NCBI GenBank assembly: GCA_026988815.1
Contig: JALSKP010000724.1
Location: 1 to 39,604, forward strand
Origin: Myxococcales bacterium
GTDB lineage: Bacteria > Myxococcota_A > Bradymonadia > Bradymonadales > Bradymonadaceae
Direction: 5' to 3'
DNA: 39,604 bases
The notes under the pieces are model-generated. The model made no database searches. It saw nothing but the letters and a program-made list of their open reading frames with translations, and was not told the DNA's origin. The translations under genes and the position numbers were made by a program. Shown piece after piece: positions 33,798 through 37,293 of this stretch. How positions within the stretch are numbered: position 1 is the stretch's first letter; every line of letters starts with the position of its first letter.

Positions 33798-34964
33798 ATG
33801 TTTAAATATGTGACACCAAATCTCGATCGAATTCTATCAAGTTTAGTGTTCACTCTTTCCATTTTTGGATGTGATTCGGAAAAGTCCTCTTCGCCCGTCG
33901 TTGAAATTGACCAGTCGTCGTTCGAAGATATGAAAATGCGCGCCCAGGACGTGAGCAAGGATCTCGTTGAACCAGAACCGTGTGAAAGCGATTGTCCCTG
34001 GCCGAAATTTTCCGGCTCTGAAATCGTGTTTACGAATATCTTTGATTTTGAGGGCACTTCCGTGACATCGATTGCAGCTGATCCGAGTGTTATCCATACC
34101 GGTTTTCGATATGAGATGTTTTTTACCTGTATAAATTATGGACTGGGGGATCCTCCACCGACTCAGCTTTGTAGCGCATTCTCTTCCGATGGACGAAATT
34201 GGACCCAAACTCCCGGTCCATTTGGTGGAGGTATTCTCTCTGGTGAACAAGGCTCCGGAGCTTTTGCTCTGGAGGGCGTCGATACTGTCTATTTAGGGGT
34301 GGATGGATACGCACTTTTCTATTCCACTTACCCCGAGAGTGCGAATGCCGACCCGGTTTCCGGATATCCAGCGACGCTGAGATTAGCAACTGGAACCTCG
34401 GTGAATGGTCCGTTTGTGCCTCTGTCCGAGTCGCCATTACGTAAAACCCCAAGTGGACCAGATCATGACGCAATCTATAGTCCAAGTAGCATCCAAACTT
34501 CAGAGGGGTGGCAGATGGTTTATGCCGGACATTGTTTTCCGCGACAAGGTGTGGATTGCCCACTGACAGCAGGAGGGGTCTCACTACTTTTTGCGAAAAG
34601 CCCTAACCTTTTTGGACCGTGGGTGAAAATTGATCCGCCTGTGTTTGGAGAGAATCGACCTGAATGGGCTGGAATAATGGTAGCTGAACCATCGTTAGTT
34701 AAAGACCAAGATTTTTATTATATGTTCATCACTGGGTTTATTGCCGGTCCAGACGGAGAAAAGCCAAACGCTATAGGAATGGTTCGAAGTCGAACGCTTG
34801 ATGGTCCTTGGGAATGGAATCCAGTTCCCATTATCGAAAAAAAAGAAACGGAAATTGGTGTTGTGGCTCCAAGTGTTGTGGTCCGCGATGGAAAGTTTCA
34901 ACTTTGGTATACTTCCATTGATAGCGAGGGAATCTATAGGATCGCCTATTCTGAATCGAACTGA
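33798..34964 (+). CDS. Lipoprotein with GH43/five-bladed beta-propeller-like domain
   Basis: Lipobox-like FTLSIFGC; repeated blades with ADPSVIHTGFRYEMFFTC, DQDFYYMFITGFIAG, GPWVKIDPPVF, VAPSVVVRDGKFQLWYTS. Confidence 0.6.
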   Translation: MFKYVTPNLDRILSSLVFTLSIFGCDSEKSSSPVVEIDQSSFEDMKMRAQDVSKDLVEPEPCESDCPWPKFSGSEIVFTNIFDFEGTSVTSIAADPSVIHTGFRYEMFFTCINYGLGDPPPTQLCSAFSSDGRNWTQTPGPFGGGILSGEQGSGAFALEGVDTVYLGVDGYALFYSTYPESANADPVSGYPATLRLATGTSVNGPFVPLSESPLRKTPSGPDHDAIYSPSSIQTSEGWQMVYAGHCFPRQGVDCPLTAGGVSLLFAKSPNLFGPWVKIDPPVFGENRPEWAGIMVAEPSLVKDQDFYYMFITGFIAGPDGEKPNAIGMVRSRTLDGPWEWNPVPIIEKKETEIGVVAPSVVVRDGKFQLWYTSIDSEGIYRIAYSESN

Positions 34965-35192: not shown

Positions 35193-37202
35193 TTATTCAA
35201 CCTCGAAGCTAAGCGTCCAAGAGACAAGTTTTCCAACGTCTACAGCCGCGCTATCAACGATGTGAAGGGTATATTCTCCAGAAAGCACCTCGCCTTTTAA
35301 TGCATCAAGTGCTTTGGAATCAATAATCACGTTCGCTTGAGCATCGGCGCCTTTATAGACCTCGATGGTCTTCGCGCCTTTTGAAAGCGTGATGCTAAGG
35401 TCGCCGCGGTAGGTGTGCTCGACGTTGAGATTAATGAGTGCTTTTGCGATCTTACCGGGCTCATCAATCACGATGTTATCAAACGCGCCTGAAGCGTCGT
35501 TATCAGGAATGGCCATATTGGGAGTTGATGTTTTCGTGACCGATTTTTGATTGTCATTTCCAGACGAAAGTTTCGAGCCGACCAAGGCAAAACTGCTTTT
35601 CGCGTAACCATCGATCATGATGTGAATCACACCAGCGCCGGCGAGTTCTACACGGCAGGTTTCATTTGAGCCTGATTTATAAGGACGACAATCGTAGTTC
35701 GCTTTCGTTGGTTCTGAACCCACTTTGACGTAAAGGTCGGCGTCACCGGTACCGCTTAAGACGAATTCGTAAACGCCAGCTGCGAGCACTGGAGTCTGGA
35801 AACGAAGATTTGCGCCACGTGCAAGATCGCCGCTTTCTTGCAAGCCTTTCCAATCTTTGTCTGCGTTATCTCCGCCACCAGGAACGAAGGTATTGTCTTC
35901 TTCGCCGGAAACGAGAACGACTTGTGCCGAATCAACGCCGCGAAACATTTGCTCGAAGGTTTGAGGGTCGTCATATTTCATAAGACCGCGAATCAAAGAA
36001 ATGGTGTCGCGTTCCATCGAACGGAAGAAGGCAGGCATCGCGTTGGTGATGATGTCCACATATTTTGTTCCTTTAGCATCGTCCGGATTTACACGGGCAT
36101 GGGCGTCATTTAATGCTGAATCAACGTAGGCATAAGTATCACAACCGTTCATGAAAACGATGGAATATTGACCTTGAATCCAATCGCCTTTGTTGGCAAG
36201 AGTACGAATATTTGCCCCCAAACCAGCGTGCCCGCCGTAGGCGATAAGATCGGCAGTTCTTGATAACTCTTCATAACGATCGTTGAAATCTCTTCCCGCG
36301 GTTCGAACATTATCGACCAGAAGGGTTGTGATTTTCATCGTTTTTCCGTTCCCAAGTGAGACTTCGAAATTGACTTCAGGATGTTCAACACCAGGGTTTT
36401 TTGTCCTGGGCTCAATCGTTGGACTCATTCCTCTCAATTCACGTTTCATCTTCTTAACGAATTGATTGTATGCAGATATACCAGCATCGGAACGGGTAGT
36501 AGCGCCGTCCTCGTATTTTCCAAAAATGGCAACGATGTTGAGAACATCATCTTCATAAATTTTGTGGTATTCAGGATATTTCCCTGTGGTGTTGATTTCA
36601 CTCACACTCACATTCGCCGTCGCAGTATAGACGTCTTCGTCGGCGAGCTCGCAGTTACGAGCTGTAGCGCGATAGTAATACCACATCGACGAGGTATCAA
36701 CGTCATGGGCGGAACGGTCGATGCAATCATGGTTGTATTTTTCAGTGAAGGCGTCTTGGGCGCTTCTTGCCATGTCGATCGGGATTTTAAATTCGTAGGT
36801 ACTTGGAACGTTGCTTTTCTTTCCCCATGCAACAGGCAAAACCACATCGTAGTTGATCCGTGTACGGCCGTTTTCCTGTGCCGTTTCAACGTTGGATAAA
36901 ATAATCTTATCCAGACGACCGATTGAATTATGCTCGTTGAGGTGACCAATCGTGAAAAGAAGTTGGTCTTCGATTTGGCCGTTGACGTTAAAGCGGGAGT
37001 CGCTGAGAAGCGTTCCGCTAAATGCCATATTTAGGAAAATGGCCTGCACGCTAGAATCGGCTTTTCCATCACTTTTGACGAAATCGCTTTCGCTAATATC
37101 CAATTTTTCTACGGGCGCCGAGATCTCTTCAGAACATGAAAAGGTAAGGCTGGAAACAAGAGCTGCGGCAAATAAAGATTTAATTTTCAAAATGATCTCC
37201 AT
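35193..37202 (-). CDS. Lipoprotein with putative caspase-like region, PPC-like domain and C-terminal P (proprotein convertase) domain
   Basis: Lipobox ALVSSLTFSC; TADLIAYGGHAG and QYSIVFMNGCDTY; PPC-like VYEFVLSGTGDADLYVKVGSEPTKANYDCRPYKSGSNETC; P domain ALINLNVEHTYRGDLSITLSKGAKTIEVYKG...LSGEYTLHIVDSAAVDVGKLVSWTLSFE. Confidence 0.8.
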   Translation of the reverse strand: MEIILKIKSLFAAALVSSLTFSCSEEISAPVEKLDISESDFVKSDGKADSSVQAIFLNMAFSGTLLSDSRFNVNGQIEDQLLFTIGHLNEHNSIGRLDKIILSNVETAQENGRTRINYDVVLPVAWGKKSNVPSTYEFKIPIDMARSAQDAFTEKYNHDCIDRSAHDVDTSSMWYYYRATARNCELADEDVYTATANVSVSEINTTGKYPEYHKIYEDDVLNIVAIFGKYEDGATTRSDAGISAYNQFVKKMKRELRGMSPTIEPRTKNPGVEHPEVNFEVSLGNGKTMKITTLLVDNVRTAGRDFNDRYEELSRTADLIAYGGHAGLGANIRTLANKGDWIQGQYSIVFMNGCDTYAYVDSALNDAHARVNPDDAKGTKYVDIITNAMPAFFRSMERDTISLIRGLMKYDDPQTFEQMFRGVDSAQVVLVSGEEDNTFVPGGGDNADKDWKGLQESGDLARGANLRFQTPVLAAGVYEFVLSGTGDADLYVKVGSEPTKANYDCRPYKSGSNETCRVELAGAGVIHIMIDGYAKSSFALVGSKLSSGNDNQKSVTKTSTPNMAIPDNDASGAFDNIVIDEPGKIAKALINLNVEHTYRGDLSITLSKGAKTIEVYKGADAQANVIIDSKALDALKGEVLSGEYTLHIVDSAAVDVGKLVSWTLSFEVE

Positions 37203-37293
37203 CAATGTGGTGTAACGAATAATCAACAAAGCAACTTTTAGGCCAAAAAACCTGCTTTAAATCCTCACGCAAATTCGCGCGATTTAAATCTTA

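Follow-up and report, generated by a model that had tools for sequence, protein, structure and literature searches.

The gene on the minus strand at positions 35193-37202 of the window (the whole stretch of Myxococcales DNA analysed, 39,604 nucleotides) very probably encodes an exported, lipid-anchored cysteine peptidase with a clan CD (caspase/gingipain-type) domain, belonging to a large undescribed lipoprotein family of Myxococcota. The family most likely consists of new clan-CD-type cysteine peptidases, whose catalysis, substrate and physiological role we infer. A preliminary description of this DNA had proposed a lipoprotein in which an undescribed caspase/gingipain-fold peptidase is fused to PPC and P domains. 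The gene and its parts are located as follows.

35193..37202, minus strand: whole gene, a 669-aa lipoprotein with an N-terminal domain, a predicted caspase-like domain, a PPC domain and a P domain
37134..37148, minus strand: lipobox LTFSC with the predicted lipidated Cys23 (from sequence)
37053..37067, minus strand: GKADS linker motif, residues 46-50, between lipobox and core (from homologue counts)
36588..37052, minus strand: N-terminal domain of the core, residues ~51-205, beta-rich, of no known family (AF2 model and conservation)
35868..36587, minus strand: predicted caspase-like catalytic domain, residues ~206-445 (AF2 pLDDT 93; C14/C25/CHAT profile match)
36486..36488, minus strand: Asp239, before the first catalytic-domain helix, candidate S1-pocket acid (D in 115/119 members; putative role after PMC4357240)
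36228..36230, minus strand: His325, predicted catalytic base, directly after a strand (119/119; AF2)
36141..36143, minus strand: Cys354, predicted nucleophile, directly after the next strand (119/119; AF2)
35610..35771, minus strand: PPC domain PF04151, residues 478-531 (E 6e-11, over the Pfam cut-off)
35205..35435, minus strand: P domain PF01483, residues 590-666 (E 2e-8, over the Pfam cut-off)

The length of 669 aa is counted from an ATG, and a further in-frame TTG lies upstream at 37229. The core comprises about residues 51-445 (about 395 residues), and core numbering plus 50 gives protein numbering. Judged from its signal peptide and the lipobox LTFS-C23 the protein is a bacterial lipoprotein, with lipidation as a prediction; the Cys23 column is retained in 50/50 aligned homologues, and 114/119 have a lipobox-like site ahead of the core. 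The lipoprotein assignment and the two C-terminal domains of the preliminary description were thus borne out, as was its remark that no subtilisin or metallopeptidase motif is visible. The lipobox and the PPC/P domains fit a secreted peptidase, PPC and P domains being found most often on peptidases. The same C-terminal modules occur in secreted subtilases and metallopeptidases, but unlike in these, Pfam finds no serine or metallo catalytic domain in the window protein. In the N-terminal domain Cys160 and Cys184, each kept in 118/119 non-redundant members, form a possible disulfide. The convergent neighbouring gene (33798-34964) probably codes for a lipoprotein, one that is weakly similar to GH43 (E 2e-7, slightly under the cut-off).

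That the family is undescribed, as had been proposed, is supported by its absence from Pfam, NCBIfam, PDB sequences and the papers searched. The core matched nothing in these three sequence collections, its profile found no match among PDB sequences, and a single-sequence PDB search returned only a PPC-containing metalloprotease and one chance-level match.

Both stretches on which the peptidase proposal was founded, TADLIAYGGHAG and QYSIVFMNGCDTY, are present in the window protein, where a GGHAG is followed by an NGC some 30 residues on. They place His325 in YGGHAG and Cys354 in FMNGC, 29 residues downstream. A hydrophobic-GH[AGS]...hydrophobic-[GSA]C pair was found in 5/20,000 shuffles of the window protein, in 3/1,909 ORFs outside the family and in none of the other window ORFs of at least 200 aa; the low frequencies in shuffles and non-family ORFs therefore indicate that the pair is not due to chance. 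Conservation is stronger evidence than shuffle frequency. His325 and Cys354, on whose conservation among homologues the preliminary description had staked its proposal, are invariant in 119/119 non-redundant family members and kept in 20/20 very distant ones, the pair being retained even at 15-23% identity. Tyr322 and Gly324, the latter directly before the His, are likewise each present in 119/119 members, and position 239 is Asp in 115/119. Across 50 sequences reaching down to 15% identity, the only strictly invariant residues are P160, Y272, G274, H275 and C304 (core numbering). The spacing between His and Cys is 26-30 in all members but one, and the 20 very distant members retain [YF]xGH[AS]G and GCxTY or come near it. 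The residue after the His is Ala in 94 and Ser in 25 of the 119 members and never Gly, the commonest in clan CD, which counts against a clan CD assignment; Ala or Ser is also found here in 7/28 bacterial C14 sequences and in some CHAT and C25 sequences. A papain/NlpC-type thiol enzyme was ruled out by the order of the two residues, His then Cys in this family and Cys before His in those enzymes.

The relationship to known clan CD families was assessed by profile-profile comparison (hhalign), with alignments of C14, C25, CHAT, C11 and a small-GTPase-like control built from related genomes, and with 100 column shuffles. The catalytic half of the family scored 34 against C14 (E 2e-4), 25-28 against C25, 24 against CHAT, 18 against C11 and 12-13 against the GTPase control. 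These scores were reached by 0/100 shuffles for C14, C25 and CHAT, by 2/100 for C11 and by 30/100 for the GTPases; the C11 match is indistinguishable from shuffles, and the GTPase control lies at the shuffle mean. In the displayed C14, C25 and CHAT alignments the His and Cys columns of the family coincide with those of the two catalytic residues, in agreement with the clan CD layout suggested earlier. The distant subset alone scored 39 against CHAT (E 9e-5), 27 against C25, 26 against C14 and 13 against the GTPases. By the same method the known clan pairs gave 74 (C14-CHAT), 50 (C25-CHAT), 41 (C14-C25) and 27 (C14-C11), the C25-C11 and CHAT-C11 relationships were not detected, and C14-GTPase gave 13. 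Since known clan pairs score 27-74 where detectable, the link between the family and C14 is about as strong as those among accepted clan members, with hhalign probabilities for the family against clan CD that are low in absolute terms. Neither the window protein nor the family members scanned reached the Pfam cut-offs of C14, C25, C11 or CHAT; one very distant member gave a weak Peptidase_C25 match (E 0.044).

The best match, C14 (bacterial caspase homologues and orthocaspases; PF00656), shares the GH..C layout, and the region past the Cys aligns too. Unlike C14, the family lacks a Pfam match, consists of lipoproteins with their own N-terminal domain and PPC, and has GH[AS] where C14 mostly has GHG. 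Gingipain-type C25 peptidases (PF01364) resemble the family in being secreted, in a YxGHxx and Cys in register and in C-terminal beta domains, but the family stays below the C25 cut-off, has a different N-terminal domain and is lipid anchored. The CHAT group (PF12770, including Csx29-type TPR-CHAT and separase-like peptidases) is the one matched by the distant subset, and separase is the best clan CD fold match of the main model. Unlike CHAT proteins, the family is exported and without TPR, and no Pfam CHAT match was found among 70 members scanned.

An AF2 model of the core, built with 83 sequences, reached pLDDT 93.2 and pTM 0.88. In core numbering, DSSP assigned to its second half a strand (170-178), a helix (190-209), a hairpin (226-246) and a helix (254-264), then a strand (269-274) followed at once by His275, a helix (278-288), and a strand (297-303) followed at once by Cys304, after which come helix, strand, helix and strand. 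In clan CD enzymes the two dyad residues lie where strands 3 and 4 end C-terminally, and a Gly adjoining the catalytic His is conserved (PMC4357240, a review). In the model His and Cys indeed follow two consecutive strands; the invariant Gly here stands before the His, not after it. The predicted fold is compatible with clan CD. On the six-stranded sheet of the caspase fold, with five strands parallel and one antiparallel, the fold-search evidence that follows is weak and mixed. A Foldseek search of the PDB gave no strong structural match for this main model: small GTPases lead (E 1.3e-4, query TM 0.21), and the best clan CD match is separase at rank 22 (query TM 0.24), an order that speaks against clan CD. 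A viral-model fold search likewise put small GTPases on top. When the model of a distant homologue (pLDDT 72; sequence 23% identical) is searched, the caspase Dronc comes first in the PDB (E 4e-4), and caspase-6 follows at rank 30, surrounded by GTPases and peptidyl-tRNA hydrolases. The earlier expectation of a caspase-like fold is thus upheld by strand positions and profiles and only weakly by Foldseek, and our fold argument leans on the former two more than on the latter.

These searches raise the alternative of a Ras-like fold, or another of Rossmann type, that has no relation to clan CD and in which His and Cys serve structure or metal binding. Small GTPases (Arl1, MglA) lead both the PDB and the viral fold searches, and the succession of strands and helices, with a hairpin following the first helix, is like that of a G domain. 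We nevertheless regard this alternative as highly improbable: the query TM values are only 0.20-0.24, there is no GTP supply for an exported protein, and His and Cys, both placed after strand ends, belong to the small strictly invariant set. A small GTPase identity as such was rejected, as there is no P-loop GxxxxGK[ST] after the first strand and the profile control is at noise. An unlikely but more serious competitor keeps the caspase fold and drops peptide hydrolysis, the dyad carrying out transpeptidation, ligation, amidase or thioester chemistry, or the domain being a non-catalytic binding module. A lipid anchor together with PPC would likewise be in keeping with a transpeptidase at the surface, for instance of the T9SS sortase type. 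The peptidase activity of the family is itself a prediction, and a passage of PMC6426788 mentions dead members of clan CD families, the pseudo-orthocaspases. That some 140 divergent sequences without exception retain both residues argues against a dead enzyme, and the customary association of PPC and P domains with peptidases argues against non-hydrolytic chemistry.

In the favoured reading of a clan CD peptidase, His325 would activate Cys354 for attack on the peptide bond that follows the P1 residue. Asp239, where the first helix of the catalytic domain begins, would be located at the site with which other clan CD enzymes read P1. The N-terminus of this helix is one of three clan CD regions setting P1 choice, and at that region Asp163 of RgpB and Asp365 of MALT1 select basic residues (PMC4357240). 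The near-invariant Asp239 stands at this position, so a basic P1 (Arg or Lys) would be favoured; by analogy this is the most likely specificity, and a reasonable guess. The N-terminal domain with its two conserved cysteines would be exported and probably disulfide-bonded, and the PPC and P domains are probably surface folding or binding modules, or may be removed on maturation. The likely job would be proteolysis at the outer surface or outside the cell, by a predatory or saprophytic myxobacterium.

A second conserved element lies next to the lipid anchor. GK.D is found between lipobox and core in 76/119 homologues, and the 20 very distant members all keep its K and D. A motif of the form GK[AE]D[STN], ~15-45 residues after the lipobox, occurs in this family and in unrelated lipoproteins of one relative (G005), three of which carry it (L292, L293 and L305; the types are P-domain, PSCyt-type and PGA_cap). 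GK-x-D is consequently not a signature of this family alone, and the idea of GKADS as an autoprocessing site special to it is weakened. A search of the window's own genome for further lipoproteins with GKAD[ST] found none, and a crude text search of the literature found no paper on the motif. GK-x-D may be a processing or sorting element, perhaps an undescribed myxobacterial lipoprotein motif. As an addition to the clan CD peptidase reading, and not as an exclusive alternative, the protein might cut its own Lys47-Ala48 bond in GKADS, leaving its lipid anchor, or might mature lipoproteins with the same linker. The frequency of the motif, its presence in the three G005 lipoproteins and the basic P1 suggested by Asp239 speak for this, but about a third of the near members are without it, the window's genome offers no second lipoprotein of this kind, and the motif could serve as a signal for sorting or be just a neutral linker; we consider self-processing quite unlikely. 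The wider version, in which surface caspase-like lipoproteins across the phylum, with basic P1, trim the shared GK-x-D linker of themselves and of other myxobacterial lipoproteins, is very improbable; if true, it would provide Myxococcota with a dedicated lipoprotein-shedding or maturation protease.

A core homologue, at most 75% identical, is present in 33/143 related genomes. When 84,980 species genomes were scanned, 147 relatives were confirmed; of these the best 80 were retained, almost all of them under titles such as Myxococcales, Deltaproteobacteria or Kofleriaceae. By profile search the family occurs, often in multiple copies, in 66/237 sampled Myxococcota species genomes, roughly a quarter. 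No homologue was found in the plasmid collection searched. The window's own genome (assembly 88% complete) gave no C14, C25, CHAT or C11 hits, which makes the window protein the only clan-CD-like protein detected there. The family loci examined showed no convincing conserved gene neighbours: clusters spanning most loci look like the family gene itself or ORFs overlapping it, and the remaining ones comprise at most 12 loci or short antisense-type ORFs. This lack of a genomic partner counts against the clan CD reading.

If the clan CD reading is true, a large unnamed peptidase family exported as lipoproteins is added to the caspase/gingipain clan, with His325/Cys354 as a concrete predicted active-site pair for mutation. 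Myxobacteria are predators with many secreted enzymes, of which a surface cysteine peptidase family would be a testable part; the unusually conserved linker motif beside the lipid anchor is a second testable question.

The fusion of the core to both PPC and P domains, as described for the window protein, is real but atypical of its close relatives. Among 134 ORFs (some genes being counted twice, as two loci) there are 95 with core and PPC, 28 with core only (among them ORFs truncated at a contig end or with a different tail), 7 with core and P and 4 with core, PPC and P. The last group is the window gene and its same-genus counterpart, present repeatedly. PPC is the usual C-terminal domain of the family, the P domain being confined to the window genus and some distant clades. 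In the 20 very distant members (L265-L284) the alignment covers chiefly the catalytic half, and lamin-tail or Cys-rich C-termini are frequent, with lamin-tail PF00932 in 11/20 and Cys-rich repeats TIGR04201 in 5 after the catalytic domain. In L033 and L040 a hydrophobic stretch with an Arg-rich tail, like MYXO-CTERM surface-anchoring signals, takes the place of PPC. The same-genus genome carries a tandem second copy with core only and without PPC and P domain (L059:8168-9346), and in one genome a divergent member (L130:4332-5495) lies near a close member on the opposite strand.
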